Source of the DNA: Anaerobacillus sp. CMMVII
GTDB lineage: Bacteria; Bacillota; Bacilli; Bacillales; Anaerobacillaceae
Reading direction: 5' to 3'
DNA length: 64,000 nucleotides
Assembly (NCBI RefSeq): GCF_025377685.1
Contig: NZ_JACEHK010000001.1
Span: 1 to 64,000 of the forward strand
In this document: positions 32,491-48,460 of the stretch, in pieces
Numbering within the stretch: the first letter of the stretch is position 1
Layout: every line of letters starts with the position of its first letter
Notes under the pieces: model-generated
What the model was told of the DNA's origin: nothing
Databases searched by the model: none
What the model saw: only the letters and a program-made list of their open reading frames with translations
Made by a program: the position numbers and the translations under genes

Positions 32491-32753
32491 TCGTGCTTTA
32501 AAAGCATCTATATGTATGCGATAAAATGATGTTTAAATTGTGGCTGATCAATACTGTGATTTACATAATTTTATTACACAGTTTCACATAATCTTATTTA
32601 GACTATAAGAATACCCTAAGTTATTACTCACTAACTTCACACTTTTTTCACAAACTGAAAATCAAGCAATTTGAGTGGAGTACGCTATAATAAAGGCTTT
32701 TATGACCGTTTTATAGCTACTTGTAAAATCGTTCACATTTCTGTAACAGTAAA
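32491..32753. other. Upstream regulatory region of nrfHA-1
   Basis: No gene is visible. On the minus strand there are motifs near TTTGTGAA, the ResD-site consensus known in B. subtilis: TTTGTGAAA near 32646-32655 and weaker ones near 32580 and 32732. They sit upstream of the FNR box. ResD binding is a weak inference. Confidence 0.35.
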
Positions 32754-32769
32754 AGTGATTTTTATCACA
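32754..32769. promoter_or_regulatory. FNR-type box upstream of nrfH1
   Basis: AGTGA-TTTTTA-TCACA differs from TGTGA-N6-TCACA by one base. Its centre (32761.5) lies exactly 41.5 bases before a start predicted 7 bases after the -10 TATGAT (32791-32796). That is the classical class II activator arrangement, and no good -35 is present. Confidence 0.75.
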
Positions 32770-32790
32770 TTGTGGGAAAGTGTAAAAAAG

Positions 32791-32796
32791 TATGAT
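32791..32796 (+). promoter_or_regulatory. -10 box of nrfHA-1
   Basis: TATGAT, placed correctly for an FNR-activated promoter with predicted start near 32803. Confidence 0.6.
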
Positions 32797-32916
32797 TAAG
32801 ACAAGAAATATTACAACAAAAAAGTTATTGTTCAGCGCTTTAGAAAAAACCGTTGGATATTAAGAGGTTTTATAAATCAACTGCTAAGGGTTTAAAAAAT
32901 GAAAGGAGAGAAACCG

Positions 32917-33432
32917 ATGGGGAAATTGCTTAAAAGACTAGATAAGAAGATTTTGTTGTTTACGTTAGCTGGTGTGTTTGCTGGAATTGTTTTATTTGCA
33001 GGAACTGCCGGGACTTTAAAGGCAACAGATAGCGGAGAGTTTTGTTCTAGCTGTCATATTATGGGTACAGTTTATGAAACATTCGCAAACTCCAACCACG
33101 CATCATTAAGTTGTAATGACTGCCATGCACCGCGAGATAGTGTAACATCAAAGCTTATGTTCAAAGCGAAGGCTGGTATGGGTCATATGTATATGAATAC
33201 AATTGGAGCTAGTAAAATCCCAGATGTACTTCATGCCACAGCTGACTCACAAGAGGTTATTAATCAAAATTGTATTAGTTGTCACGAACCGAGCTTACAA
33301 AATGTGTCTCATGATGTGAAAGATAGTTGTGTGGATTGTCACCGTCAAGTTCCACATATGAAAGGTGACTTTAGACCAGCGGATTGGTTTGAACCAAAAG
33401 AATTTTACTTTGTAGAACCAGGTAGAAAATAA
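32917..33432 (+). CDS. nrfH: Cytochrome c nitrite reductase small subunit NrfH, copy 1
   Basis: NrfH is a membrane-anchored tetraheme quinol oxidase that feeds NrfA. An N-terminal helix (about residues 12-30) serves as uncleaved anchor. Four heme sites follow: CSSCH (43-47), CNDCH, CISCH and CVDCH. The first has the family form CxxCHxM with Met49, the expected heme-1 ligand. ATG 32917 follows AAAGGAGAG; length 171 residues. nrfA starts just after. It is the NapC/NrfH family; the adjacent pentaheme NrfA fixes the NrfH assignment. Confidence 0.94.
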   Translation: MGKLLKRLDKKILLFTLAGVFAGIVLFAGTAGTLKATDSGEFCSSCHIMGTVYETFANSNHASLSCNDCHAPRDSVTSKLMFKAKAGMGHMYMNTIGASKIPDVLHATADSQEVINQNCISCHEPSLQNVSHDVKDSCVDCHRQVPHMKGDFRPADWFEPKEFYFVEPGRK

Positions 33433-33449
33433 TGAAAGGGATGAATAAA

Positions 33450-34904
33450 ATGAGAAGTAATACTAAAAAGCCGTTTCTTTTAATGATCATATCATTTTTC
33501 TTAATGCTTGCATTAGTAGGTTGTGCTAGTTCACAGGCACAAGAGAAAGAACCATTGAATACCGGGTTAGATCCAAAAGAGTGGAATAGTTATGCATTTA
33601 AAGATAAATTCCCGTTACATTGGGAAAGTTTTATGAAGAACATGGTAGATGAAAAAGAGGTAAAACCTAAGAATGATCCTTCAATTGAACCTTACTTACC
33701 AATCTTATGGAACGGTTTCGGTTTTGCTGTTGAGTATAATTTAACTCGTGGTCATACGTATGCCTTTGAAGATCAAATGGAAGTTAGACGTATCACGGAT
33801 AACCCAAATGCAATCTCGGCTTGTATGTCTTGTAAAACAACTTTATTTCCAGCTATGATTGAGGAATTTGGATATGAGAAGGCTTTTGCTATGAACTATC
33901 ATGATGAAGCAATGCCTTGGATTGATAAGATGACAGAACCAACTAAAACAGATGAACTTGGAAATTATGGGCACGCGTCAGTTGGATGTTCTACTTGCCA
34001 TGACCCTGTAACAATGGATTTACGTGTTTCATTGCCACAGTTAACAATTTCTTTAGAAAATATGGGCTATGATATCTCAAAAGCAACACAACATGATATG
34101 CGTTCTCTTGTGTGTGCACAATGTCACGTAGAATATTACTTTGACCCAGCTAATGACCGTCACACAACTTTCCCTTGGGCTAATGGCTTAAGAATGGAAA
34201 ATATGTGGGATTACTACGAAGAGAAGTTTGAAGTCGAAGGGCAATTCCAAGGAGAATATGTGTCTCGTCTAACGAATCAACCAATTTTAAAAGCGCAACA
34301 TCCTGAGTATGAATTATGGAGCTATGGGCCTCACCAATCTGTATCATGTTCAGACTGCCATATGCCTTACCAAAGAGTTGATGGTAAAAAGAAAATTACT
34401 TCACACCGTTGGGGTTCACCATTAAAGACTGTTGAAGAATCTTGCCGTACATGTCATGCTGATAAATCTCCAACAGAAATTAAAGATCGTGTAAAAGATA
34501 TTCAAACAGTTCATAAAGCAGCACTACTTGAGGCTCAAGAAGTTAGCGTACAGGCAACTTATTATGTTAACAGAATGATGACTCGTGAAGTAGACGCAGC
34601 TAAGATTAAAGAAGCTCAACATTTGCTTCGTGAAGGACAATGGTTCTGGGATATTATTGCAGCTGAAAACTCTAAAGGTTTCCACAATCCACAAGGAGCT
34701 ATGGAGTCATTTAGAAGATCAATTTTAGCTTCTTCAAAGGCTATTGAAATTGCGACAATCGAGTTAATGAAGAATGGTGAAGACATTGACGAGTTAAAAC
34801 GTCAAATAGAAATTACAAAGCAAAACGTAGTCAACGAAACAGTCTCTCATCAAAAACACTTACAGGCAATTAATGAGTGGTTCCCGAACCACCGTGATAA
34901 GTAA
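33450..34904 (+). CDS. nrfA: Ammonia-forming cytochrome c nitrite reductase NrfA, copy 1
   Basis: NrfA reduces nitrite to ammonium with six electrons outside the cytoplasmic membrane. The active-site heme motif is CMSCK (125-129), the Lys-ligated form specific to NrfA. Four CxxCH sites follow at about 180, 222, 300 and 332. Catalytic candidates are Arg100 (LTRGH), Tyr229 or Tyr230 (CHVEYY) and His284 (KAQHPEYE). The signal ends LVGC with Cys25, so it should be a lipoprotein. ATG 33450 has AAAGGG 9 bases upstream; upstream ATGs at 33432 and 33441 are less well placed. Length 484. A terminator follows. Confidence 0.96.
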   Translation: MRSNTKKPFLLMIISFFLMLALVGCASSQAQEKEPLNTGLDPKEWNSYAFKDKFPLHWESFMKNMVDEKEVKPKNDPSIEPYLPILWNGFGFAVEYNLTRGHTYAFEDQMEVRRITDNPNAISACMSCKTTLFPAMIEEFGYEKAFAMNYHDEAMPWIDKMTEPTKTDELGNYGHASVGCSTCHDPVTMDLRVSLPQLTISLENMGYDISKATQHDMRSLVCAQCHVEYYFDPANDRHTTFPWANGLRMENMWDYYEEKFEVEGQFQGEYVSRLTNQPILKAQHPEYELWSYGPHQSVSCSDCHMPYQRVDGKKKITSHRWGSPLKTVEESCRTCHADKSPTEIKDRVKDIQTVHKAALLEAQEVSVQATYYVNRMMTREVDAAKIKEAQHLLREGQWFWDIIAAENSKGFHNPQGAMESFRRSILASSKAIEIATIELMKNGEDIDELKRQIEITKQNVVNETVSHQKHLQAINEWFPNHRDK

Positions 34905-34913
34905 TATTATAGT

Positions 34914-34953
34914 AAGAAACTCTCTTCAAATGGTTGAAGGGAGTTTCTTTTTT
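34914..34953 (+). terminator. Terminator after nrfA1
   Basis: A 16-bp stem (34914-34929 with 34934-34949) followed by six T; it separates the two nrf operons. Confidence 0.92.
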
Positions 34954-35047
34954 ATTTTTAAAGTTAGATATAACAACCTTTTCAGTGCTTTTTTCTTTTC
35001 AATTTTATTCAATCTCGTCGCTATATTCATAGTTTTGACACACTTTT

Positions 35048-35063
35048 TGTGATGGATATCACA
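35048..35063. promoter_or_regulatory. FNR-type box, distal, upstream of nrfH2
   Basis: TGTGATGGATATCACA is a perfect TGTGA-N6-TCACA palindrome. No good -10 lies at the class II distance, so its role (activation from afar or another start) is open. Confidence 0.7.
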
Positions 35064-35255
35064 GTCTATATAGAGGGGGGTGGCCCAATTTTTCAGAGGA
35101 ATTGTTAAAAAATATGTAAATTACTATGTTGTTTTTTAGATATTGTGTTATTCGCAGCAGGATATTGGCGGTATATTGAGCTTTGCTACAAAACAAAAGC
35201 TATGGAAACACCCGAGATTCCTTATAGCGCTAGTATTATTTATACTCGCAAAAGG

Positions 35256-35271
35256 TGTGATAAAGTTCACA
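35256..35271. promoter_or_regulatory. FNR-type box, middle, upstream of nrfH2
   Basis: TGTGATAAAGTTCACA is a perfect TGTGA-N6-TCACA match. Its centre is 33 bases (about three helical turns) from the next box. Confidence 0.7.
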
Positions 35272-35288
35272 GTTTGTTCACTAATCAC

Positions 35289-35304
35289 AGTGACATTTCT
35301 CACA
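35289..35304. promoter_or_regulatory. FNR-type box, proximal, upstream of nrfH2
   Basis: AGTGACATTTCTCACA matches with one change. A weak -10 (TAACCT, 35326-35331) is at the class II distance from its centre. Confidence 0.6.
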
Positions 35305-35377
35305 GTGACCAGTAGTAGAAAAAAGTAACCTTAAGGTAGCAAATAAATAATATTGTGTAAAAAAATAAAAGTTGCTG

Positions 35378-35463
35378 TTAAACTAAGTTTTGAATTGGTA
35401 GTAATAAGTCTACCTGGATACGCTTAACGACTTATACCTAGTTTACCGATAGACTTAGTTTAA
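35378..35463 (+). other. Long structured leader of nrfHA-2
   Basis: An 86-base hairpin: TTAAACTAAG (35378-35387) pairs with CTTAGTTTAA (35454-35463), then TTGGTA with TACCGA, then ATAAGTC with GACTTAT. It ends about 16 bases before the ribosome site. It could protect or regulate the mRNA. No known riboswitch is recognised. Confidence 0.55.
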
Positions 35464-35489
35464 TATGTACAATGTAAAGGGGGGAGATC

Positions 35490-35993
35490 ATGAGAAATTT
35501 ATTTCAGAAGATCAATAACAAACTACTTTTATTTACACTAGTTGGGGTGTTTGTAGGAATTGTTTTTTTTGCGGGGACAGAAGGGGCAATTAATGCAACA
35601 GATACACCAGAGTTTTGTGCTTCATGTCACGTCTATGAACATACAATTACAAACTTTGAAAATTCAAATCACTCAGCACTAAAGTGTAATGACTGTCATG
35701 CACCAACAGACAGTAAAATTGCCAAATATACTTTTAAAGGTATAAATGCAATAAGCCACGGTTACGCAACAACAGTTGGTGCAAGCAAGCTTCCTGATGT
35801 TATTCATGCAACAGATAAGTCAAAAGAAATTATCGAAAAAAATTGCGTAAGTTGTCATGAACCAGGATTACAAAATGTTTCACATGATATGAAAGATAGT
35901 TGTATTGGCTGTCACCGTCAGGTACCGCACAATAAGGGTGATTACCGACCAGCCGAGTGGTTTGAGCCAGGAAACTTCAAATTTAATCGATAA
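35490..35993 (+). CDS. nrfH: Cytochrome c nitrite reductase small subunit NrfH, copy 2
   Basis: A 167-residue paralogue of NrfH1 with the same plan: anchor helix (about 12-30) and heme sites CASCH (43-47), CNDCH, CVSCH and CIGCH. The main difference is at heme 1, which reads CHVYEH: the expected ligand Met49 is Tyr49. This may change the redox potential or quinol site. ATG 35490 follows GGGGGGAG. nrfA2 follows directly, so each NrfH has its own NrfA. Nearly the whole C-terminal part (SCHEPGLQNVSHDMKDSC) is shared with copy 1. Confidence 0.93.
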   Translation: MRNLFQKINNKLLLFTLVGVFVGIVFFAGTEGAINATDTPEFCASCHVYEHTITNFENSNHSALKCNDCHAPTDSKIAKYTFKGINAISHGYATTVGASKLPDVIHATDKSKEIIEKNCVSCHEPGLQNVSHDMKDSCIGCHRQVPHNKGDYRPAEWFEPGNFKFNR

Positions 35994-36017
35994 ATAATCA
36001 TGAAAGGGTTGAAACAA

Positions 36018-37463
36018 ATGCGAGTCTTAAATAAAAAGTCACTCTTGTTGGCCTTGGTTTCTATGTTAGTTATGTTTGCTCTAGTGGCATGTAATAGCTC
36101 TAAAGCAGAAGAAAGCATGCCTATGGATACTGGCTTAGATCCAAATGAATACTTAAACACAGCGTTTAAAGATAAATTCCCATTACAGTGGGAAAGTTAT
36201 ATGAAAAATATGGTGAATGAAAAGGAAGTCATCTCAAAGAGTGACCCTTCGCTAGAACCATATCAACCTGCCTTATGGAGTGGTTACGGTTTTTCTCTTG
36301 AGTATAATTTAACAAGAGGCCATACGTATGCCTTAGAAGATCAAATCAATATTAAACGTGTAAATGATAAAACTACGGGTTCATGTTTAACGTGTAAAGC
36401 TACAGTCGTCCCATTATTGTTAAGCGAAGCTGAATTTGGTGAAGGATATTGGGGTGCAAACTTTAATGAAGAAATTTTACCTCGTGTTAAAGAATTAGGT
36501 TTAGGTGGAGAAATGGCTGATTTAGGAGAATGGGGTCACCTTTCCATTGGTTGTTCTGATTGCCATGATCCGGTAACTATGGATTTACGTGTGACACGCC
36601 CATCGTTCACTAGAGCAATGGAACGTAGAGGTGTAGATTTAACGAAAGCAACACATAATGAAATGAGATCGTATGTATGTGGACAATGTCACGTTGAGTA
36701 CTACTTTAAGACAGAAAACAAGGAAGTTACCTTCCCTTGGGATAAAGGTTTAAGAGTTGAGAATATTTATGAATACTTTGAAACGATAGCAAAGGATGAG
36801 GACTTTAATTATGACTGGATCCATAATATTTCAGGAACTCCATCTTTAAAAGCCCAACATCCTGAGTTTGAATTATCAAGTTACGGACCTCACGGAAATG
36901 CAGGGGTAACGTGTTCAGATTGTCATATGCCTTACCAGAGAGTTGATGGTAAAAAGAAAATTTCTTCACACCGTTGGGGTTCACCATTAAAAACAGTTGA
37001 AGAATCATGTCGAAGCTGTCATGCTGACAAATCAGTTACGTACTTAAAAGACCGTGTTGAAGATATCCAAGACCGACACAAAGAAGCTCTATTAGATGCT
37101 CAAGAGTTAAATACGATTTCACACTATTATGTAAACCGAATGATTACAGCTGGTGTTTCTGAAGCGAAGATTAAAGAAGCGCAAGATCATGTTCGAAAAG
37201 CGCAATGGTACTGGGACTTCATCGCAGCAGAGAACTCGTATGGGTTCCATAATCCAGACGGATCAATTGATGCTTTTAGGGTTTCTTCAATTGAATCACA
37301 GGCAGCGATTTTAATAGCTACTGAAGAGCTTGTTAAATTAGGCCATAATATTGAAGAACTAAAACAACAAATCGAAACAACAATGCAGAACATTGTTAAT
37401 GAAGACGATCCATTCAAAAAGCATACACATGCGACTAATGAATGGTTCCCACCACAAAACTAA
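36018..37463 (+). CDS. nrfA: Ammonia-forming cytochrome c nitrite reductase NrfA, copy 2
   Basis: A 481-residue paralogue of NrfA1. The active-site heme motif is CLTCK (123-127), followed by CSDCH, CGQCH, CSDCH and CRSCH. Arg100, the CHVEYY tyrosines and the histidine in KAQHPEFE are kept. The signal ends LVAC with Cys25, again a predicted lipoprotein. ATG 36018 is chosen because AAAGGG lies 9 bases upstream, parallel to copy 1. Identity with copy 1 is high in the heme-4/5 region and lower around residues 120-170. A terminator follows. Confidence 0.95.
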   Translation: MRVLNKKSLLLALVSMLVMFALVACNSSKAEESMPMDTGLDPNEYLNTAFKDKFPLQWESYMKNMVNEKEVISKSDPSLEPYQPALWSGYGFSLEYNLTRGHTYALEDQINIKRVNDKTTGSCLTCKATVVPLLLSEAEFGEGYWGANFNEEILPRVKELGLGGEMADLGEWGHLSIGCSDCHDPVTMDLRVTRPSFTRAMERRGVDLTKATHNEMRSYVCGQCHVEYYFKTENKEVTFPWDKGLRVENIYEYFETIAKDEDFNYDWIHNISGTPSLKAQHPEFELSSYGPHGNAGVTCSDCHMPYQRVDGKKKISSHRWGSPLKTVEESCRSCHADKSVTYLKDRVEDIQDRHKEALLDAQELNTISHYYVNRMITAGVSEAKIKEAQDHVRKAQWYWDFIAAENSYGFHNPDGSIDAFRVSSIESQAAILIATEELVKLGHNIEELKQQIETTMQNIVNEDDPFKKHTHATNEWFPPQN

Positions 37464-37474
37464 ATTGTGAAGAA

Positions 37475-37503
37475 GCGCCGTACACATTTTGTACGGCGTT
37501 TTT
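37475..37503 (+). terminator. Terminator after nrfA2
   Basis: A 10-bp stem GCGCCGTACA/TGTACGGCGT (37475-37484 with 37490-37499) and T run. Confidence 0.9.
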
Positions 37504-37670
37504 GTGTGTAAATGTGTAATGTTGTGGTGTTGTGTTAGTGCATACTAAACTCAATAGTATCAATGTTTTTATGGGGACGTTGAAGTGTCTCTAGTGAAAT
37601 TGTCGTTGAGTTTACCTACCTGTAATCCCACATTGTCACATAAATCATTCACAGTTATTTCACCCTAAAC

Positions 37671-37686
37671 TGTGATTTAAATCACA
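37671..37686. promoter_or_regulatory. FNR-type box upstream of the ccm operon
   Basis: TGTGATTTAAATCACA is a perfect, fully symmetric site. A -10-like TAAAGT at 37708-37713 lies at the class II distance from its centre (37678.5), with predicted start near 37720. Confidence 0.75.
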
Positions 37687-37757
37687 GTTTGAAAACCCCT
37701 TAAATATTAAAGTTTAAGTAGGATTTACAGAGATAAATCAAAAGGGGAGAAACATAT

Positions 37758-38741
37758 ATGAAAAAACTAGTTAGAGGCTTTGTATTGTTAGTAGCTGTCC
37801 TCTTATTACAACTAACGATCTTGCCACCAAATGAAGCATTATCAGACAACCAAGATATGTCATTGACACAGTTAAATATTAAAGTAATGCCTGAATTTAT
37901 TAATCCAGAAGGGTGGGATTATAACATTCCTTCACTTTTAGTAGGGTATCACGGTACATTCGTTAACAACTCTGACTTGCCGTTTACTGGAGAAATAAAA
38001 TTTAGTGCACCTACTCACCTTGAGAGTTTCACTCCAGGATTTGTAGCGAAATTTGAGAATTATGAGGATACAAATCCGGTTGAGGAAGATTATACAGTAA
38101 ATTTAGAAGAAGGCTACTTTTCTTGGATACCTCAAAATCCAATTGCTCCTGGTGAAGAATACTATTTCGTCGTTGAATACTTTGTTGCTGCGATAGAAGG
38201 TGTTGTAGATCGAAGCTTCACATTCGAATATGCTGCTGACTTTGATGTTGAAAATATGAGTATTGATGTTTATGCACCTTATAGAGTAGAAAATTTTAAA
38301 ATTGATAAGGAAGCTGACCTAAACTCAATGACTTTCGGTTTAGAATTTCATATGTACGAATATACAGATGTAAAACAAGGGGAAGTTTACGATCTGACAG
38401 TTTCATATACAAAAGACAATATCGTTACGACAATGGAAGCCTTGAACGACTTCAGTGCTCCGGATGATGATGCACATGCAGGTATGTTCCAACCAGCACC
38501 AACACAAAATAGTGGCTTCCTTAGCACTGAAAATGTAATCATGTTGATTTTAATCCTGGTCTTTGTTGGTGCTTTTGTTTTTCTTATTCTTCGTAAAAAG
38601 AAAGATACACCAAAAGAAGTAATCAAAACACCGAAGAAAATTGTTAATAAAGAAGAAGAGATAAAGAGACTACGTAAAATGTTAGCTGACGGTGCAATTG
38701 ATGAAAAGATGTACAAAGAAAAGCGTGCTAAGTTAGGTTAA
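37758..38741 (+). CDS. Unrecognised extracytoplasmic membrane protein heading the ccm operon
   Basis: A 327-residue protein I cannot assign to a named family. It has a signal peptide (about 1-28), an extracytoplasmic domain of about 225 residues rich in aromatic and acidic residues and beta-like in character, a transmembrane helix (about 259-278), a Lys-rich stretch, and a cytoplasmic end EIKRLRKMLADGAIDEKMY that resembles the short SHOCT-type helical hairpin. There are no cysteines, so it is not a heme c protein. ATG 37758 follows GGGGAG. ccmE starts 19 bases downstream and the FNR box is just upstream, so a role in heme delivery or Ccm assembly is inferred. Confidence 0.75.
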   Translation: MKKLVRGFVLLVAVLLLQLTILPPNEALSDNQDMSLTQLNIKVMPEFINPEGWDYNIPSLLVGYHGTFVNNSDLPFTGEIKFSAPTHLESFTPGFVAKFENYEDTNPVEEDYTVNLEEGYFSWIPQNPIAPGEEYYFVVEYFVAAIEGVVDRSFTFEYAADFDVENMSIDVYAPYRVENFKIDKEADLNSMTFGLEFHMYEYTDVKQGEVYDLTVSYTKDNIVTTMEALNDFSAPDDDAHAGMFQPAPTQNSGFLSTENVIMLILILVFVGAFVFLILRKKKDTPKEVIKTPKKIVNKEEEIKRLRKMLADGAIDEKMYKEKRAKLG

Positions 38742-38760
38742 TTGAGGAGGGGGAACTCAA

Positions 38761-39201
38761 ATGAAAAAGAATACAAAGGTTTTACTTGGAGGAAGTACGG
38801 TCATCTTATCAATATTAATTTTATTAATTGCTGCAACACCAGGAGCAAGTGGAACTGAAATTCCACTTCAAGAGGTTTTAGCAAATCCTGAAAAGTACGA
38901 AGAACGTTATGTGACAACTGAAGGATTTTTAGTTGCAGAATCAATTGATTGGCGTGCTGATGAAATTGAATTACGTTTTGATATTGTTGATAGCGAAGGA
39001 AATGTGTTATCTGTTTTCCACCATGGTGTAAGACCAGATAACTTTTCTGAGGGAGTTATCACTATTTTAGAAGGCTATATCGTACCTGGAGAACCATTCA
39101 ACGCGGAACGTGTAAAAACGAAGTGTCCATCAAAGTATGAAGGTGAAGATCCAAACAATTATGATCCAGAGTTTCATAAAGAGTTATTAAATGATAATTA
39201 A
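38761..39201 (+). CDS. ccmE: Heme chaperone CcmE, CxxxY variant
   Basis: CcmE carries heme covalently from CcmC to CcmF in System I cytochrome c maturation. The 146-residue protein has an N-terminal membrane anchor (about 7-27) and an OB-fold outside. The heme-attachment site of the classical protein is HxxxY; here it is Cys122-Pro-Ser-Lys-Tyr126, the CxxxY variant known from archaea and some bacteria such as Desulfovibrio. The C-terminal tail is acidic. ATG 38761 follows GAGGAGGGG. ccmF is 36 bases downstream. Confidence 0.9.
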   Translation: MKKNTKVLLGGSTVILSILILLIAATPGASGTEIPLQEVLANPEKYEERYVTTEGFLVAESIDWRADEIELRFDIVDSEGNVLSVFHHGVRPDNFSEGVITILEGYIVPGEPFNAERVKTKCPSKYEGEDPNNYDPEFHKELLNDN

Positions 39202-39237
39202 GTCTATTGAAATTGAACCCAAAGAAGGTGGCGCATC

Positions 39238-41217
39238 ATGCATTTGATAGGAAATATATCAATTTATTTAGCACTCGCTTTATCAATTTATGCTTTTGTA
39301 ATTTTTATTTTAGGCATATATAAACAAGATCAAAGATATGTAGATAGCGGAAAGGCTGCAAGTTTAGCAGTATTTATTCTAGCATCAATTTCAATGTTAG
39401 TCCTTTTTACAGCATTAGGTACAAGTCAGTTCCAATTTGAATACGTTGCTTCTTACACAAGTTCTGATTTACCTATTCTTTATAAATTAGCTGCTCTTTG
39501 GGCCGGTAATGCCGGTTCACTACTTCTGTGGACATTCTTTTTAACGATGTATACGGCAATGGTTGTTTACTCAAGAAAAATGAAAAACAATCCAATGACA
39601 CCATATATTGCAGCAATCATGCTTGCAAATACAATTTTCTTCTATTTAATCTTAGGGTTTGTCGCAAAGCCATTTATTCTTTTAGATGTAGTACCGATGG
39701 AAGGCCGTGGATTAAATCCAATGCTTCAAGATCCTGGGATGCTATTACACCCAGTTACATTATATCTAGGATATGTTGGTTTAGCAGTTCCATTTGCATT
39801 TGCTATAGCGGCATTAATTATCAAGAGCGTTGATGCATTCTGGCTTCGTATGACTCGTCGTTGGACGATTATCGCTTGGGTGTTCCTAACATTAGGAAAC
39901 GTTATTGGTGGATATTGGGCATACATGGAGCTAGGTTGGGGTGGTTACTGGGCATGGGATCCTGTTGAAAACGCCTCATTTATGCCATGGCTAACAGTAA
40001 CAGCTTATCTTCACTCAGTTATGATCCAGGAACGTAAAAACATGTTGAAGATTTGGAATATCTCTTTAATTATTCTTTCATACGCTTTAACCTTATTTGG
40101 AACTTTCCTTGTACGAAGTGGGGTACTGACTTCAGTTCATGCTTTCGGAGACTCTAACTTAGGTGCATACTTCTTAATCTTTATGGCATTAGCAGTTATT
40201 TTCTCATTATACGTTTTAATGAGTCGCTACCACTTATTAAAGAAAGACAGTGGCCAATTTGAGTCATTATTATCGAAGGAAAGTAGCTTTTTAATTAATA
40301 ATTTAATCTTAGTTGGTGGTACATTTGCAGTGTTTTGGGGAACAATCTTCCCACTAGTTTCTGAGGCTGTAAGAGGTACGAAGGTAACAGTAGGGATACC
40401 ATTCTTTAATACAGTTATGTCACCAATTTTATTAGCATTAATATTTGTAATGGCGGTTTGCCCGTTAATTGCGTGGCAACGATCGACAGTGAAAAATCTA
40501 AGAGATAATTTCTTAATACCTGCCATCATCAGCTTAGTCATTATTGGTTTGCTAGCTGGCTTAGGAATGAGAGCAGCATATCCAATTATCGCTTATGGAA
40601 TTATTTCATTCATGATTTTAACTCATATTGTAGAATTTTACCGCGGTGTGAAGGCGAGAAGAAAAGTAACCAAAGAGGCTTATCCAATTGCACTTTACTG
40701 GTTAATGGTAAAAAATCGTCGCCGTTATGGTGGTTATATTGTTCACTTCGGGATCGCCCTAATGGCAATTGGTATTGTCGGATCAAACTTTGATGTTGAA
40801 ACGATGAAAACAGTACAAAAGGGCGAGAAGATTGAAATTGCGGACTACGTACTAACGTATGAATATCTTGCACAACGAACTGAAGGAATTAATGATATCG
40901 TCTTTGCTAATATCCATGTATCCAAGAATGGTAAGGATATGGGATACGTACAGCCAGAAAGGATTTTCTATGGTAGCTGGGAAGAACCTTCTACTGAAGT
41001 GGCGGTACTTGGTAATTTAAGTGAAGATTTATACGTAGTATTAAGTGCTTGGGAACGTGATGAGCGTGCGACATTTGTAGTTAAAGTAAATCCGCTAGTT
41101 AAATGGGTTTGGATTGGAAGCTTCGTCCTTGTAATTGGCTCAGTATTTGCAGTTTGGAATGGCAAATTTGGACATATCACGCCACGTTACACTGGACCAC
41201 AAAGGAAGGTGTCTTAA
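39238..41217 (+). CDS. ccmF: Cytochrome c heme lyase subunit CcmF
   Basis: CcmF takes heme from CcmE and attaches it to apocytochrome. The 659-residue protein has many transmembrane helices and the WWD motif WGGYWAWDPVENASFMPW (about 234-251). Candidate heme-ligand histidines are His171 (LLHPVTLYLGYVG) and one in TAYLHSVMIQERK. A large outer loop follows the last but one helix (about 520-620). Length and order are typical of CcmF rather than the shorter System II CcsA/ResC. ATG 39238 follows AAGGTGG. ccmH starts at the stop codon. Confidence 0.95.
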   Translation: MHLIGNISIYLALALSIYAFVIFILGIYKQDQRYVDSGKAASLAVFILASISMLVLFTALGTSQFQFEYVASYTSSDLPILYKLAALWAGNAGSLLLWTFFLTMYTAMVVYSRKMKNNPMTPYIAAIMLANTIFFYLILGFVAKPFILLDVVPMEGRGLNPMLQDPGMLLHPVTLYLGYVGLAVPFAFAIAALIIKSVDAFWLRMTRRWTIIAWVFLTLGNVIGGYWAYMELGWGGYWAWDPVENASFMPWLTVTAYLHSVMIQERKNMLKIWNISLIILSYALTLFGTFLVRSGVLTSVHAFGDSNLGAYFLIFMALAVIFSLYVLMSRYHLLKKDSGQFESLLSKESSFLINNLILVGGTFAVFWGTIFPLVSEAVRGTKVTVGIPFFNTVMSPILLALIFVMAVCPLIAWQRSTVKNLRDNFLIPAIISLVIIGLLAGLGMRAAYPIIAYGIISFMILTHIVEFYRGVKARRKVTKEAYPIALYWLMVKNRRRYGGYIVHFGIALMAIGIVGSNFDVETMKTVQKGEKIEIADYVLTYEYLAQRTEGINDIVFANIHVSKNGKDMGYVQPERIFYGSWEEPSTEVAVLGNLSEDLYVVLSAWERDERATFVVKVNPLVKWVWIGSFVLVIGSVFAVWNGKFGHITPRYTGPQRKVS

Positions 41218-41711
41218 GTGAAAAAAGTTATTGCTACTTTGACACTACTTTACTCATATCAGTGATCCCCGCATATGCCGGGGATCAATATGACTACAAG
41301 TCAGCGGAATTTAAAGAAGTTGCCTCGCAGTTTATGTGCATGTGTGGATGTGGTCAAGACCACTTCGAATGTAATATGCAAGGCTGTGGATTAAATGACT
41401 CATTTAAAGTTGAAATTAAAGAAATGATGGATGATGGTTTAACAAAAGATGAAATTAAGGATTATTATATCGGGATGTATGGTGAAGAAATCTTAACCGC
41501 ACCAGAAAAAAAAGGTTTTAGTCTTACAGCTTGGATTTTGCCGTTTGCAGTACTTGGAATTGCGGGTGTTGGAATTATCTTCGTCATTCGGAAATGGGTA
41601 GCAAGTAATAAAGAAGAGGTTTCACTTTTTGACGAACGTACAGAGGAAGAGCAACTAGAAGATGAAATAGTAAAGTCAATGATTGATGAAGAACGAAAAA
41701 AGTATTTCTAG
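41218..41711 (+). CDS. ccmH: CcmH-family protein with a five-cysteine cluster (one frameshift)
   Basis: CcmH acts with CcmF, holding the apocytochrome CxxCH thiols. The GTG at 41218 opens MKKVIATLTLL; one missing T near 41252 must be restored to give LLLISVIPAYAGDQYDY, a cleavable signal peptide. The usual LRCxxC motif is replaced by CMCGCGQDHFECNMQGC, five cysteines in 17 residues. A transmembrane helix (about 103-121) and a charged cytoplasmic tail follow. CcmH homologues with extra Cys occur in other Gram-positive lineages from memory. The cluster could bind metal or shuffle disulfides. Confidence 0.85.
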
Positions 41712-41724
41712 GATGTGAATGGTT

Positions 41725-42081
41725 ATGTCAATCGTGTTAGGTATACTACTAGTAGCATTCTGTCTTTATATCGTAGTCACTCCATTGTTGAGAAAGCACA
41801 ATACTCAACTAGCGGTAAAAATGACGGATGATACGGATGAAATTTCACTAAAAAGTATCTACGCCACTTTAAATGAGTTAGAAATGGACTTTCATATGAA
41901 GAAGCTCTCAGATGAAGATTACCAAAAGCTTAAAAATCAATATGAAGGTTATGCAGCCGAACTATTAGAGAAACAGAAGAAAAAAACTAGTAAGACATCT
42001 AATGATAGTCTTGTTAAGGATATCGAGGCGGAAATCGAAGAAGAATTAGCAAAGCTTAGAAAAGAGAGAGGGGAAAAGTAA
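41725..42081 (+). CDS. Small CcmI-like membrane protein A
   Basis: A 118-residue protein with one N-terminal helix (about 2-20) and a charged coiled-coil tail. The segment SIYATLNELEMDFHMKKLS followed by DEDYQKLKNQYEGYAAELL resembles the cytoplasmic region of CcmI (LRALRELEFDYxxGKLSxEDY). CcmI normally delivers apocytochrome to the heme lyase through a large outer domain, which is missing here. I use ATG 41725 because AGGATG lies 9 bases upstream; ATG 41719 is possible. The next gene starts one base after the stop. Confidence 0.75.
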   Translation: MSIVLGILLVAFCLYIVVTPLLRKHNTQLAVKMTDDTDEISLKSIYATLNELEMDFHMKKLSDEDYQKLKNQYEGYAAELLEKQKKKTSKTSNDSLVKDIEAEIEEELAKLRKERGEK

Positions 42082-42082
42082 C

Positions 42083-42478
42083 ATGGTTGGACTAATTTTA
42101 GCTTCAGCTATTACAAGGTCTACCCCGTCTTTCCATAACCCTGGTCATCTACGAATGTGGTATTCTTCACCGCTAAGAAGCTTTGATCCACACTTGGTTA
42201 CTGCTATTTTAGTCTTAATTCTAGTTGCAGGTGTTGGTTGGTTTGTCTATTTTCAATTGAAGCACCGTGCTTCAGAAGAAAAGGTAGAAGCTAATCCAGA
42301 AGAAAAAGTATTTCAAGAATTAGTTGTAAAACAAAAAGTAATCTTAAATAAGTTATTGGAACTAGAAGAGATGCATAAAGCTGGGGATATAGCTGATCAA
42401 GAATTTGAAAAAAAAGCATCTCTTTATCGTGAACATCTCGTAAAGGTAAAAGTGGAATTACAAAGGTTCATGGACTAA
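42083..42478 (+). CDS. Small CcmI-like membrane protein B
   Basis: A 131-residue protein with one transmembrane helix (about 38-57) and a helical tail with LNKLLELEEMHKAGDIADQE, again like the CcmI/SHOCT-type helical hairpin. The first 37 residues (SAITRSTPSFHNPGHLRMWY) look unlike a normal signal or domain. Since frameshifts are common in this window, that part may be mis-framed. AGGGG precedes ATG 42083. Position between CcmI-like A and ccmA suggests a Ccm role. No firm function. Confidence 0.7.
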   Translation: MVGLILASAITRSTPSFHNPGHLRMWYSSPLRSFDPHLVTAILVLILVAGVGWFVYFQLKHRASEEKVEANPEEKVFQELVVKQKVILNKLLELEEMHKAGDIADQEFEKKASLYREHLVKVKVELQRFMD

Positions 42479-42490
42479 AGGAGAGGGCCT

Positions 42491-43193
42491 ATGATAGAGA
42501 CAAAAGGACTCATAAAAACGATCGGCGATAAGATGATCCTTCGCGGAAATCAACCTTTCTATAAAAAAGGGTGAATCTGTGGCAATATTAGGACCTAATG
42601 GTGCTGGAAAAAGCACAATCCTTAAAATTATCGCCGGTCTTATAAAAGCAACAGATGGGGAGATAAAAATAGATGGTATGGACTTTAAAAAAGATTCATA
42701 CGAAATGAAACAAAAGATTGGTTTTTTAGCTCATAACAGTTTTCTATATGATCATTTAACACCATTAGAAAATTTAAAATTCTTTGGGAAGCTGTATGGT
42801 GTCAAAGATGTGGAAACGAAAGCGAAACAACTCGTTGATGAAGTTGGCTTAGGTTTCTTTATCCATGACCCAATCCGCTCCTTCTCAAGAGGTATGTTAC
42901 AAAGAATTGCTATCGCTAGAGCGATTATTCATGATCCGGAAATACTACTCTTTGATGAGCCGCATACCGGGTTGGACCAACAAGCTATCAAAATTCTTAA
43001 CCAAGTAATTCTAAAGATGAAAGCAAACGGGTCAACTGTCATTATGGTTACTCATGATTTTCAACAAGCGGTCGAAACGTGTGATCGAGTGCTTATTTTT
43101 AGAAATGGAAAACTCGTAGAAGACATTAGCAATGTTGCTAAAGACCTTGAGTTTGTGAAGGAAAGATATGCAGAACAGGTGGCAAGCCGATGA
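42491..43193 (+). CDS. ccmA: Heme exporter ATPase CcmA (one frameshift)
   Basis: CcmA is the ATPase of the CcmABCD complex that releases holo-CcmE from CcmC. ATG 42491 follows AAAGGAGAGGG. Near 42543 an extra G breaks the frame; removing it gives LREINLSIKKGESVAILG. Walker A is GPNGAGKST, the signature is FSRGMLQRIAIARA (Ser-Arg-Gly in place of Ser-Gly-Gly, common in CcmA), and Walker B is ILLFDEPHTGLD. It overlaps ccmB by four bases (ATGA). The shift is likely a sequence error. Confidence 0.9.
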
Positions 43194-43873
43194 ACAATTT
43201 ATTCAAAGCAGCCTTTATCATAGCCGGGAAGGATCTCTATTCAGAGTGGAAGACAAGACAAGTCGTTACTACAATGTTGATATTTTCAGGGTTAGTCATT
43301 GTTACCTTTTCATTTGCTTTTGATCCATCTAATAATGCTGTTAAAGCGATTATTCCAGGTTTGATTTGGGTCATTACAATATTCTCAGCCATTTTAGGAT
43401 TAAACCGTTCTTTCCAATCAGAAACTAAGAATGACAATCTATATGGGATGATTGTTTCGCCAACGGACCCATCAAGTATCTATTTAGGAAAAGTAATTGC
43501 TAATTTTGTCTTAGTATTAATTGTTCAACTCATATCGATACCGGTTTTATTTCTTCTATTCGACTTTCGATTTTTAGGTCATCTGCCGTTATTTCTAGGT
43601 GTTGTTCTTCTAGGTACGTTTGGCTTTATTAGTGTCGGGACGTTTTTAGCAGGCTTAGCAGCAAACTCGAGAAGTAGTGAGATGCTCTTACCAATTTTGT
43701 TATTCCCGCTTGTCAGCCCTATCATTATTGCAGCAGTTCAGGCAACGAGAATTCTTTTAGTAGATTTAGAGCAAATTGCAAGCGCAATTTCTTGGATGCA
43801 GCTAATGGGTGCTTACAACTTAATCTTTTTTGTCTTATGTTTCATCCTTTTTGAATATGTACTGGAGGTGTAA
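43190..43873 (+). CDS. ccmB: Heme exporter membrane protein CcmB
   Basis: A 227-residue protein with six predicted helices, the membrane partner of CcmA. The N-terminus AAFIIAGKDLYSEWKTRQVV and LGLNRSFQSETKNDNLYGMI fit the CcmB family. The start overlaps the ccmA stop, and ccmC starts three bases after the stop, so ccmABC are tightly coupled. Confidence 0.92.
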   Translation: MNNLFKAAFIIAGKDLYSEWKTRQVVTTMLIFSGLVIVTFSFAFDPSNNAVKAIIPGLIWVITIFSAILGLNRSFQSETKNDNLYGMIVSPTDPSSIYLGKVIANFVLVLIVQLISIPVLFLLFDFRFLGHLPLFLGVVLLGTFGFISVGTFLAGLAANSRSSEMLLPILLFPLVSPIIIAAVQATRILLVDLEQIASAISWMQLMGAYNLIFFVLCFILFEYVLEV

Positions 43874-43876
43874 TAA

Positions 43877-44614
43877 ATGAAGCTTATTAACGATGATTTA
43901 ACGGCTATACCAGAAGAAACAATGCTTCATAGAGTTTTAATGTATCTTAGTATCCCAATGGTGCTAGTAGCCCTCTATTTAGCATTTATTTATACACCTA
44001 TTGAGGTAAAAATGGGAGTTGTTCAAAAAATCTTCTATTTCCACGTTGCCTCTGCTTGGGTTGCATTCTTTGCATTCTTTATTGTTGCAGTGTTTAGTAT
44101 TATGTACCTTGTGAAAAGGAAGCGTATTTATGACATTATTGCTGGTGTATCAGCAGAAATTGGTGTTGTTTATACTGCAATTGTATTAACGACTGGACCA
44201 ATTTGGGGTCGTTCTGCCTGGAATACTTGGTGGTCTTGGGAGCCAAGACTTACAACAACTTTAATCCTATTTTTCATGTACATCGCCTACATTATGATCC
44301 GTCATATGGACGGACCTTGGGAAAAGAAAGCACGTCTTGGGTCAGTATTTGGAATTATTTCTTTTATAAATGTGCCAATAGTCTTCATGTCAATTCGTTG
44401 GTGGAATTCGAAGCTTCACCCAGTTGTATTGGGAGAGGGAGCAAGTGAATCAGGTGGTGGTCTAGAGCCATCAATGTTATTTGCTTTAATCTTTACCGTG
44501 TTTACGATGACTGTATTATACTTTGTCTTTTTACAAAAAGGTGTTTATATTGAAAGATTAAAAATTCAAGCTGAACGTTTAAAAGAAAAATTTCAAGAAA
44601 AATTAGCTGGATAG
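43877..44614 (+). CDS. ccmC: Heme-handling protein CcmC
   Basis: CcmC loads heme on CcmE at the outer membrane face. The 245-residue protein has six helices and the WWD motif GPIWGRSAWNTWWSWEPRL (107-125). Heme-ligand candidates are His56 (IFYFHVASAW) and a second His near 189 (NSKLHPVVLGEG). ATG 43877 follows GGAGGTG. The short ccmD follows after 13 bases, as is usual. Confidence 0.94.
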   Translation: MKLINDDLTAIPEETMLHRVLMYLSIPMVLVALYLAFIYTPIEVKMGVVQKIFYFHVASAWVAFFAFFIVAVFSIMYLVKRKRIYDIIAGVSAEIGVVYTAIVLTTGPIWGRSAWNTWWSWEPRLTTTLILFFMYIAYIMIRHMDGPWEKKARLGSVFGIISFINVPIVFMSIRWWNSKLHPVVLGEGASESGGGLEPSMLFALIFTVFTMTVLYFVFLQKGVYIERLKIQAERLKEKFQEKLAG

Positions 44615-44627
44615 GGAGGAATAAATA

Positions 44628-44756
44628 ATGACTTATTTATGGGCCGCATACTCAATCATATTCTTAATGATCGCTAGTTACTTGTTTGTGTTAGGAAAAC
44701 GTCAAAAGGCAATCGCTAAACAACTGCAATTCTTACAAGAATTAGATAAACAGTAA
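44628..44756 (+). CDS. ccmD: CcmD, small membrane subunit of the CcmABCD complex
   Basis: A 42-residue protein opening MTYLWAAYSIIFLMIASYLF, with one transmembrane helix and a basic, Gln-rich cytoplasmic tail. Size, topology and position right after ccmC fit CcmD, which helps release heme-loaded CcmE. GGGAGGA precedes ATG 44628. It is below the usual gene-finder length cut-off. Confidence 0.85.
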   Translation: MTYLWAAYSIIFLMIASYLFVLGKRQKAIAKQLQFLQELDKQ

Positions 44757-44792
44757 TGTATAATACCCGTATTTTTACAGGGGGAGTTATGA

Positions 44793-45305
44793 ATGAATAA
44801 AAAAATAATTCAAATGGTTGTTTTAGTATTTGTAATCGGTATGTTAGTAACTATGGTCTTGGGACTGCGTTCGCAAGGTGGAGCAGTAGGAATTGGTGAC
44901 GAGGCTTACGATTTTGAGATGGAAGACCTAGAGGGGAATACTCATCGCTTATCGGACTATCGGGGAAAGGTAGTCATGTTAAACTTTTTTGCGACATGGT
45001 GTACAGCTTGTGTAGCTGAGGCTCCTGAACTTGAGCGTTTTAATGAAGAGTTTAAAGATGAAGTAGCTCTATTTGTTGTCGTAAAAGGCGAAACCAAAAA
45101 TACTGTAAGAAAATATGTAGAAGAGAAAAATTCAAAGAAAACCTATGTTTTCGACTTTACGAATAGTGTCTCAAGGAAATTTGGTGTGATCGGTCAACCA
45201 GAAACGATTGTCATTAACGAGGACGGAATAATTGTTGACCATTTTATTGGCGGCGTTTCAAGAGACTTTTTAGGTGTAGTATTAAATGATATTAAAGGTA
45301 GATAA
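44793..45305 (+). CDS. Membrane-anchored thioredoxin-like protein (ResA/CcmG type)
   Basis: A 170-residue protein with an N-terminal anchor (about 5-24) and an external thioredoxin fold. The active site is Trp69-Cys70-Thr-Ala-Cys73 in NFFATWCTACVAEAP, and the cis-proline loop is IGQPETIVI. ResA and CcmG reduce the apocytochrome CxxCH disulfide before heme attachment. At the end of a ccm operon the CcmG role is likely; the sequence resembles ResA of B. subtilis too. AGGGGGAG precedes ATG 44793. Confidence 0.88.
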   Translation: MNKKIIQMVVLVFVIGMLVTMVLGLRSQGGAVGIGDEAYDFEMEDLEGNTHRLSDYRGKVVMLNFFATWCTACVAEAPELERFNEEFKDEVALFVVVKGETKNTVRKYVEEKNSKKTYVFDFTNSVSRKFGVIGQPETIVINEDGIIVDHFIGGVSRDFLGVVLNDIKGR

Positions 45306-46658: not shown

Positions 46659-46781
46659 ATTTGCTTTATAGACTTTGAAATATAGTAGTTGAAAAGGTAT
46701 AATGGTATTTAGTACATTATTTTTTTTTACTTAGGAATAGCCATTAGTATATTGAGTTTGTCTAAAAATGGAGGTGAAGAG

Positions 46782-48460
46782 ATGAGTTATCAAGCATTAT
46801 ATCGAGTGTGGCGACCAAAGCAATTAAGCGACGTTGTCGGACAAGAACATATTACGAAAACATTTAAAAATGCTTTAATTCAAGAAAAGCTCTCTCATGC
46901 CTATCTATTTACTGGACCACGTGGTACGGGAAAAACTAGTGCCGCAAAAATTATTGCGAAAACTGTTAACTGTCACGAAGCACCTGTTGCGGAACCTTGT
47001 AATAAGTGTGAAGCATGTCTTGGTATTTCAGATGGTTCAGTTGTTGATGTGATTGAAATTGATGCAGCTTCAAATAATGGAGTAGACGAAATTAGAGATA
47101 TCCGTGACAAGGTCAAATTTGCACCAAGTAGCGGGATTCGCTTTAAAGTATATATTATTGATGAAGTACATATGTTATCTACCGGAGCCTTTAATGCATT
47201 ACTAAAAACATTGGAGGAACCACCGAAACATGTCATTTTTATTTTAGCGACAACAGAGCCTCATAAAATTCCATTAACAATCATATCAAGATGTCAACGT
47301 TTTGATTTTAAACGAATTACAAGTCAGGCGATGATTGGTAGGATGGAATTTATTTTAAGTCATTATGAAACAAAGGTGTCTGATGAAGCCTTAGCAATGA
47401 TTGCTAGAGTTTCCGAAGGTGGTATGAGAGATGCGTTGAGCTTGCTAGATCAGGCGATCTCATATTGTGATGATGGAGTTACTTTAGATGATATCCTGAC
47501 AATAACTGGAGCGGTCTCTCAAGGATTATTAACCGAAGTTGCGCAAGCTTTATTGACAAGTGATGTTGTTAAAGCGTTACAAGCTGTAGACACCTTAATT
47601 TTAGCAGGTAAAGATCCAACACGCTTTATAGAAGATTTTATCTTTTATTATCGAGACATGCTTCTATACAAAACTGCACCAGAGCTTAATGAAGCTTTAG
47701 ATAGGGTTTCATTAGACGACGAGTTTATTTCTATAAGTAAGAAACACCGACAAAATGGATTTATAGTACGATTGAAATACTCAATGGAATACTCCAGGAT
47801 ATGAAATGGTCTAGTCATCCGAAAATATTCATTGAAGTAGCGATCGTGAAAATTTGCAATAGTAAAGCTGAGACCGAAAAAGAAACTAGTGATACACACG
47901 AATCTTTGTTGAAGAAAATTCAAATCTTAGAGCAGAAGCTAGATAATATTGGCTCAATTGGGCATCAGGAGCAAGGGAAAGTTGAAGCTCCAAAGAAAAA
48001 TCAGGGGCAATTTAGTCTTAAAACAGGGAAAAATGGAATAAGTAGTGGACAAGTAAAAGAAATGCTCAAACAAGCATCTAAACAAGACTTGCAGCGGATT
48101 ACTAGTAATTGGGGACAGGTTATGGATCTAGTAAAAAAACAAAGTGTCCCTGCGCATGCTTGGTTGTCAGACAGTAAACCCGTTGCAGCATCAAAAACAA
48201 TGATATTACTTGCTTTCCAAAATGAAATGCATCGCGATATGGTTGATACAAAATTTCGTACTGTAGTTGAACAAGGGATAGCTGAAGTATTTCCTGAGGC
48301 ATTTAAAATTTTGACATTACTAACGAACCAGTGGGAGAATGTGAAAGAGGAATTTGTTCGCGATCAACGGGGAGAAACAACATCTTCTAATGAAGGTGAT
48401 CCACTCGTTGAAGAAGCTTTGAAGTTAGTAGGTTCAGATTTAATAGAAATAATCGAATAA
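46782..48460 (+). CDS. dnaX: DNA polymerase III subunits gamma/tau DnaX (one frameshift)
   Basis: DnaX is the clamp-loader ATPase. Walker A is GPRGTGKT (45-52), a zinc site has CNKCEAC, and the DEVH-like YIIDEVHMLS and SRC-motif IISRCQRFDF follow. ATG 46782 follows GGAGGTG. After about residue 320 the frame is lost near 47743; adding one A (AAGAAACACC to AAGAAAACACC) gives KKTPTKWIYSTIEILNGIL and leads smoothly into the C-terminal tau region ending at 48460. Joined length is about 560 residues, like the single full-length DnaX of B. subtilis. No slippery heptamer is present, so I treat it as a sequence error. Confidence 0.93.

Follow-up and report, generated by a model that had tools for sequence, protein, structure and literature searches.

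In Bacillus azotoformans, the genes for the nitrite reductase complex NrfHA are linked to genes of the System I (Ccm) cytochrome c maturation machinery in the arrangement nrfHA-ccmEFHABC, with one nrfHA copy and six of eight System I proteins counted (PMC3475470, published in 2012). The passages of that paper on B. azotoformans are silent on System II, on extra operon proteins, on regulation and on distribution. In E. coli, the System I-type lyase genes nrfEFG are linked to the nrf operon (PMC3601427, PMC12285233), and in Wolinella the heme synthase NrfI, a System II protein, is linked to nrfHA. The sections of PMC3601427 on NrfA maturation state that a dedicated lyase, NrfEFG or NrfI, serves the CxxCK heme motif in both systems, while in Shewanella both motif types, CxxCH and CxxCK, may be handled by CcmF together with CcmI (PMC12285233). 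The relevant part of the latter source, a 2025 review, ascribes maturation of NrfHA to System II and names Wolinella NrfI as the only confirmed CxxCK recogniser among System II organisms, the means used by the others being given as unknown. The presence of nrfAH in an Anaerobacillus has also been reported (PMC10373932). Here we analyze a nrf-ccm locus of Anaerobacillus sp. CMMVII, lying within a 64-kb stretch of contig NZ_JACEHK010000001.1 (positions 1 to 64,000, referred to below as the window). Relatives of this bacterium normally use System II for cytochrome c maturation. No closer account of System I with NrfA in Bacilli was recognised in the open-access literature.

The locus shares with B. 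azotoformans both the linkage, which is thus already in print (PMC3475470), and the gene order E-F-H-A-B-C, but it carries two tandem nrfHA pairs as well as ccmD-, ccmI- and ccmG-like genes. In E. coli, NrfE occurs beside CcmF, whereas one CcmF was found in this genome and no TPR-bearing NrfG or CcmI part was found in the operon. The place taken in Wolinella by a System II protein is occupied here by System I, and by the cysteine-type motif of its CcmE the operon is classified as the known variant System I*. Our reading is that System I* has probably been kept beside System II for the assembly of multiheme cytochromes, above all NrfHA and, more specifically, for attaching the CxxCK heme of NrfA; CxxCK attachment is the likely reason for the presence of System I.

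The genome carries both maturation systems. A genome search revealed on contig C10 a cluster of a ResA-like open reading frame (ORF), resB and resC, followed by resD and resE (the last two recognised by reading the translations); the WWD region of ResC is intact, and two DsbD/CcdA-type proteins (PF02683) are encoded in the genome. The proposal of a preliminary description of this DNA that System II exists alongside Ccm was thus borne out, and loss of System II was rejected as a candidate explanation since ResB was found. Ordinary one-heme cytochromes, which would be matured by ResABC/CcdA, are represented by eight PF13442 proteins, each with one CxxCH motif. Among the Bacillales genomes described below, ResB was detected in 31 of 32 genomes with CcmF and in 20 of 21 control genomes lacking it; the miss among the CcmF-positive genomes (G001) is 90% complete and 6% contaminated. 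This indicates that System II has not been replaced.

The distribution of the two protein families was determined in a draw of 397 genomes of the order, covering 47 families (family assignment inferred), with PF02335 used for NrfA and CcmF_C at its cut-off for CcmF. NrfA was found in 29 genomes and CcmF above the cut-off in 32 (a 33rd match was sub-threshold), and all 29 NrfA-positive genomes have CcmF. When genomes were grouped, CcmF accompanied NrfA in 11 of 11 NrfA-positive genera (p = 8e-14) and 7 of 7 families (p = 6e-7), values that are indicative since the taxa are related. CcmF spans nine families of the draw and is present in all seven genomes (one genus) that the collection contains of the family to which the window belongs. 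Neither the CcmF nor the NrfA search gave a match in a B. subtilis control genome. At the level of loci, nrfA lies within the stretch examined at 27 of 31 ccm loci of the main Bacillales CcmF clade.

A common promoter motif also connects the two gene sets. When the window was scanned for TGTGA-N6-TCACA with at most one mismatch, six Fnr-like palindromes were found against 1.9 expected, a number reached by 2 of 100 shuffled sequences, and all six, including three perfect ones, precede nrfH1, nrfH2 or U327, the first gene of the ccm operon. The FNR-type site said in the preliminary description to be common to nrf and ccm was therefore recovered. The scan was extended to 41 stretches, comprising the window and 40 related ones (kin, and so not independent), with the upstream zone defined as the 400 bases before nrfH, U327, or ccmE if no U327 was found. 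It yielded 62 sites in 29,412 bases of such upstream zones and 49 sites in 791,248 bases elsewhere. At least one site precedes 27 of 31 U327 genes; many nrfH genes in the 41 stretches have none upstream, mostly those situated after the ccm operon. The genome encodes a regulator (L331) with a C-terminal CxxCx4C cluster, which we take to be the mark of a Bacillus Fnr.

The Nrf proteins of the window have the features expected of the complex. NrfA1 and NrfA2 each exceed the PF02335 cut-off and contain one CxxCK and four CxxCH motifs, and tetraheme NrfH subunits are encoded with them; the predicted activity is reduction of nitrite to ammonium. CxxCK is the first motif in all 39 full-length Bacillales NrfA proteins, and all 38 NrfH proteins of the Bacillales loci have four CxxCH motifs. 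NrfH1 and NrfH2 scored 123 and 117 bits against TIGR03153 (cut-off 134). A third nrfHA pair of the genome lies on contig C15. The two pairs of the window stem from a duplication, and in the NrfA tree the copies are confined to their own genus.

The gene calls, based on the ORF list and on Pfam and NCBIfam scans across the window, are collected in Table 1. The two nrfHA pairs are followed by a single co-directional run (37758-45305) in the order U327-ccmE-ccmF-ccmH-ccmI-U131-ccmA-ccmB-ccmC-ccmD-ccmG. The preliminary description had listed ccmE, F, H, A, B, C and D and a ResA/CcmG-like gene beside two nrfHA operons, a list upheld by the ORFs and family scans; U327 and U131 are conserved operon members that were absent from it. 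Pfam cut-offs were exceeded by NapC/NirT, NrfA, CcmE, CcmF_C, CcmH, CcmB and Cytochrom_C_asm proteins of the window. The NCBIfam Nrf and Ccm models matched as well, but none reached its curated cut-off, which indicates that these proteins are divergent members of their families.

Table 1. Genes and putative regulatory sites of the nrf-ccm locus (window positions 32722-45305)
Feature	Position	Strand	Basis and remarks
Two imperfect Fnr-like palindromes, 5' of nrfH1	32722-32737, 32754-32769	+	One mismatch each
nrfH1, tetraheme quinol dehydrogenase subunit	32899-33432	+	Family scans; four CxxCH
nrfA1, pentaheme nitrite reductase	33432-34904	+	Family scans; CMSCK and four CxxCH
Three Fnr-like palindromes, 5' of nrfH2	35048-35304	+	Those at 35048 and 35256 perfect; that at 35289 with one mismatch
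nrfH2	35490-35993	+	Family scans
nrfA2, pentaheme nitrite reductase	36000-37463	+	Family scans; CLTCK and four CxxCH
Perfect Fnr-like palindrome, 5' of U327-ccm operon	37671-37686	+	Motif scan
U327, conserved protein without family	37758-38741	+	No family at 1e-3; AlphaFold2 mean pLDDT 83
ccmE, Cys type (CPSKY)	38761-39201	+	PF03100, 66 bits
ccmF, heme lyase	39238-41217	+	Family scans; WWD region and His 171, 259, 301, 503
ccmH open frame, CxCGC type, no LRCxxC	41103-41711	+	PF03918, 77 bits; 5' end apparently out of frame
ccmI, N-terminal part only	41719-42081	+	TIGR03142, 27.5 bits (cut-off 29.3)
U131, conserved small membrane protein	42083-42478	+	FHNPGHLRMW motif; one transmembrane stretch; charged helical tail; no family
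ccmA open frame	42579-43193	+	Family scans; a different frame for the N-terminal part (starting near 42492)
ccmB	43190-43873	+	PF03379, 104 bits
ccmC	43877-44614	+	PF01578, 85 bits; TIGR01191, 133 bits (cut-off 186)
ccmD-like, 42-aa membrane protein	44628-44756	+	Placement: a 'CcmD family' protein lies between ccmC and a thioredoxin gene in a Metabacillus plasmid
ccmG/resA-like thioredoxin (WCTAC)	44793-45305	+	Best match ResA, 110 bits (cut-off 170)

In the sequence as given, ccmH and ccmA each start in a different reading frame from the rest of the gene, as would be seen if the ccm cluster were decaying or non-functional in this genome. We consider this most improbable and rejected it, because dnaX and, by reading, recF are broken in the same manner, the CcmA and CcmH frames are longer in relatives of the genus than in the window, and the other ccm frames are intact. 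For the first two of these reasons, the breaks are probably sequence errors in the form of small indels. Apparently split frames in the window comprise recF (2751-3865), an ABC ATPase gene (27529-28544), ccmH/ccmA (41103-43193) and dnaX (46752-48460); that of dnaX was seen by the family scan, those of recF and the ABC ATPase gene by reading translations.

The encoded machine departs from textbook System I in several respects. The E. coli type has a CcmH with an LRCxxC motif, a TPR-bearing CcmI (or C-terminal part of CcmH) and a His-type CcmE, and none of these was encountered here. All 33 CcmE proteins of the Bacillales loci are of the Cys type (CPxxY) and no His-type CcmE was met among them; no LRCxxC-type motif ([LF]RCxxC) occurs in 37 CcmH homologues, ten of which have CxCGC; and the CcmI homologues are short (97-133 amino acids), with no TPR domain and no Pfam family at 0.05 in the window protein. 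The WWD region and four histidines are invariant in 16 aligned CcmF proteins, and presumably these are the heme-handling histidines of E. coli CcmF. The CcmABC(D) heme relay is present, CcmB and CcmC by Pfam matches above the cut-off and CcmD by the 42-aa ORF, while CcmA, whose frame is interrupted in the assembly, was distinguished from other ABC ATPases chiefly by its position (TIGR01189, 120 bits; cut-off 132). The portions of PMC3601427 on System I* name firmicutes among its carriers, and the CPSKY motif of CcmE is shared with that system, of whose bacteria about one third are said to keep CcmH. By comparison, the window encodes homologues of both CcmH (devoid of LRCxxC) and CcmG, retains only the N-terminal portion of CcmI, and has two additional conserved proteins in its operon.

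U327 was found at 30 of 31 main-clade ccm loci and U131 at 27, and both occur at two further loci, in Neobacillus cucumis and Bacillus sp. DNRA2. A contig scan for more ccm loci covered 80 of at least 594 stretches, two of the 80 being Bacillales by title; the 78 other loci, many of them on short stretches, gave no match to U327 and two weak matches to U131. The ccm loci of other Bacillota were viewed with flanks of 1.5 kb, which limits detection of U327 there. Weak SHOCT matches were obtained for 10 of 25 U327 members, the remaining family-search matches being unrelated. An AlphaFold2 model of fair confidence (mean pLDDT 83, pTM 0.62) predicts an N-terminal helix, an extracytoplasmic beta part, one transmembrane helix serving as a membrane anchor, and a SHOCT-like hairpin. 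Its fold matches in the PDB were beta domains of M1 aminopeptidases and of oligosaccharyltransferase-complex chains, which we take to be ribophorin I/Ost1. As these were only beta domains at low TM-scores, U327 was rejected as an enzyme and the folds were not used to assign a function. At two loci where ccm is unlinked to nrfA (L084:7343-8338 and L086:7670-8674), U131 carries a fused extracytoplasmic domain resembling that of U327 (hhalign probability 96%, from small alignments). In genome G169, a short U327 adjoins nrfHA although ccm lies elsewhere, which hints at a role of U327 towards NrfHA. As a guess, U327 and U131 may replace a TPR chaperone.

Several observations weigh against the view that System I* is kept chiefly for NrfHA. 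Six of 33 main-clade ccm loci have no nrfA in the stretch: those of G022, of G169 (with nrfHA on another contig), of G275 (on a short contig), of N. cucumis and of Bacillus sp. DNRA2, and the second ccmF locus of G219. Three CcmF-positive genomes (G022, G123 and G272) lack NrfA altogether. In G022 (L076:5818-11833), ccmE-F-H-I-C follows the gene of an MtrC/C554-like protein with five CxxCH motifs and no CxxCK; no ccmB and no close ccmA were found in this stretch. G123 and G272 group by CcmF with a plasmid-type ccm. The plasmid-type operons of Metabacillus sp. B2-18 (L191:13547-20523) and Cytobacillus firmus M7 (L192:13547-20522) are both near copper-resistance genes and a protein annotated as a cytochrome c oxidase assembly protein, and no nrfA is annotated within the 30-kb stretches around them. 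Fnr-like sites are absent from both operons of two family f17 loci with nrfHA (L081 and L085), from L084 and L086, and from all three loci starting with ccmE (L076, L080 and L087); among nrfHA copies distant from ccm, those of L091, L107, L108 and L110 have no site, and that of L100 has one. Two multiheme families, PF02335 and PF13435, were covered by the survey, and co-occurrence cannot separate CxxCK attachment from a general multiheme demand.

The same observations bear on the rather unlikely alternative that System I* supplies multiheme cytochromes generally, under high load or low heme in anaerobiosis, with CxxCK hemylated by either system. In agreement with it stand the G022 locus, in a genome without NrfA, and the PF13435 multiheme proteins, which occur in 4 of the 397 genomes, all four CcmF-positive and three of them of the genus of the window (none was found in the genome of the window itself); according to the part of a review dealing with heme supply, System I is favoured when little heme is available (PMC9145763). 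An extra ResBC beside nrfA in other Bacillota points instead to a specific problem of attachment to NrfA and not to load alone. The idea of the preliminary description that Ccm serves NrfHA agrees with the presence of CcmF in all 29 NrfA genomes but is too narrow on its own, given the multiheme neighbor in G022 and the plasmid-type ccm without nrfA. The division of labor proposed there is supported by the distribution and the common promoter motifs.

The evidence from other Bacillota comes from a phylum draw of 259 genomes, 47 of which (excluding the genome of the window) gave a near-full NrfA match above 180 bits. The genomic context was examined in 39 of these, G425, G447, G479, G483, G491, G590, G615 and G635 being left out, and provided 21 CcmF-negative loci and 16 CcmF-positive loci (15 genomes), with three loci of family f78 kept outside the two-by-two count. 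For genomes with several nrfA genes usually one locus was viewed, and some stretches were short (L284, 4.8 kb; L286, 4.2 kb; L261, 7.0 kb). NrfA often occurs without CcmF in this draw. A ResB-ResC pair adjoins nrfA at 11 of 21 CcmF-negative loci and at none of the 16 CcmF-positive ones (p = 6e-4); counted per family, the figures are 7 of 14 and 0 of 10 (p = 0.019). G414 was scored CcmF-negative, its match being below the cut-off, although its locus L254 contains a 589-aa CcmF-like ORF, and G514 is 81% complete. As a further point against a dedicated machine for NrfA, 10 of the 21 CcmF-negative loci have no ResBC next to the nrfA copy viewed, and no CcmF either except in G414; thus NrfA does not require a neighboring dedicated lyase in all cases, or the lyase is sited elsewhere.

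In family f78, a divergent CcmF adjoins nrfHA at three loci. Hybrid clusters were observed in family f68 (L262:1215-7221, L289:1204-7360 and L291:2211-8323), where ccmA-B-C-E is followed by resB-resC beside an nrfA with CxxCK. They encode a Cys-type CcmE, are counted among the 11 ResBC loci, and come from genomes without a match in the CcmF_C scan. By gene content, they would combine a System I heme relay with a System II synthase. The fourth f68 genome (L254) has the CcmF-like protein at its nrfA locus. Together with the ResBC/CcmF pattern, family f68 indicates that the synthase on the nrfA side appears to have switched between a System I and a System II type. On this basis a broader picture can be put forward tentatively, in which bacilli have two assembly lines in one membrane, System II for cytochromes with a single heme and, dedicated to CxxCK and multiheme proteins, a rebuilt System I* with U327 (and U131) as a new extracytoplasmic chaperone instead of a TPR protein, and in which the nrfA-side synthase (CcmF, ResBC or a CcmABCE-ResBC hybrid) may be a swappable cartridge across Bacillota.

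The history of the locus was examined in trees. A FastTree phylogeny of CcmF included 129 of 145 rows found (16 rows of other phyla were dropped, thinning these to 60), and placed the main Bacillales group (33 rows) as one clade (support 100) within a larger clade of Bacillota (66 rows; support 99). The four plasmid-type rows branched separately, and the f78 proteins, whose placement was weakly supported, were not part of the Bacillota clade. IQ-TREE analysis of 62 CcmF rows gave 100 for the main Bacillales group and 94 for Bacillota. The notion that ccm arose only once in the Bacillales was set aside, because the plasmid-type CcmF forms a separate branch, though one clade for all Bacillales CcmF was not rejected (p-AU 0.129). 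In the NrfA tree (84 rows), 39 Bacillales rows and one actinobacterial row lie on one side of a branch with support 100, and the subgroups f17+f25, f13/f18/f47 and f1/f26 are common to the NrfA and CcmF trees. The actinobacterial row (L185) is NrfHA of a Nitriliruptoraceae metagenome-assembled genome, a possible transfer, and is situated divergently from a ccm set.

Recent transfer from another phylum was rejected, as other Bacillota are the tree neighbors of both CcmF and NrfA, and the similar subgroups fit retention and co-inheritance within the phylum better than distant import. We read the linkage as old and widespread, with apparently mostly vertical inheritance of CcmF and NrfA and some shuffling. 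The preliminary description had left open whether Ccm was gained or kept: the presence of CcmF in all seven genomes of the family and the Bacillota-side trees speak for kept, and recent gain was not upheld. The tree comparison suggested there did show similar subgroups, but no common distant donor. Inheritance of ccm appeared largely vertical and clade-wide, which had been named there, together with absence of System II, as speaking against a division of labor; System II, as reported above, is present.

Similar trees would also be expected if ccm and nrfHA were one anaerobic-respiration island, linked by common regulation and passively co-inherited, with System II sufficing for NrfHA. The shared subgroups of the CcmF and NrfA trees and the similar palindromes before many of both operons accord with such an island, as do pairwise distances among 19 genomes, in which NrfA is tracked by ResB no less closely than by CcmF. 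The correlations were r = 0.52 for ResB-CcmF, 0.70 for ResB-NrfA and 0.54 for CcmF-NrfA, none being reached in 2000 permutations; the closer tracking of ResB by NrfA again disfavors a special tie between NrfA and CcmF, and the partial correlation of 0.29 between the two given ResB shows their co-evolution only weakly. The comparison mixes two NrfA copies, since the nrfA beside ccm in G003 is of the NrfA1 type, and G030, which has two ResB proteins (one of them was used), is placed differently in the ResB tree than in those of CcmF and NrfA. Passive co-inheritance nevertheless seems improbable, since every NrfA genome of the order draw also contains CcmF, including G169, where the two are unlinked, and ccm has been retained in nine families.

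If System I* is indeed kept for multiheme cytochromes and chiefly for NrfHA, the following scheme can be proposed. Under anaerobic conditions, both nrfHA operons would be activated jointly with the U327-ccm operon by an Fnr-type regulator. CcmABCD would put heme on the CcmE cysteine, and CcmE would hand it to CcmF, which, aided by CcmH, CcmG and the stripped CcmI, would attach it to apo-NrfH and apo-NrfA. U327 and U131 may substitute for the missing TPR chaperone, that is, the C-terminal part of CcmI or NrfG.

The answer of Bacillales to the problem of CxxCK attachment would thus probably be System I, in place of the System II assignment made in the relevant part of the 2025 review (PMC12285233). 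Bacteria with both machines, one CcmF, several NrfA proteins and two unassigned operon proteins would be clean test systems, and the natural swaps of ResBC and CcmF beside nrfA may help to reveal which properties allow a heme synthase to accept CxxCK.

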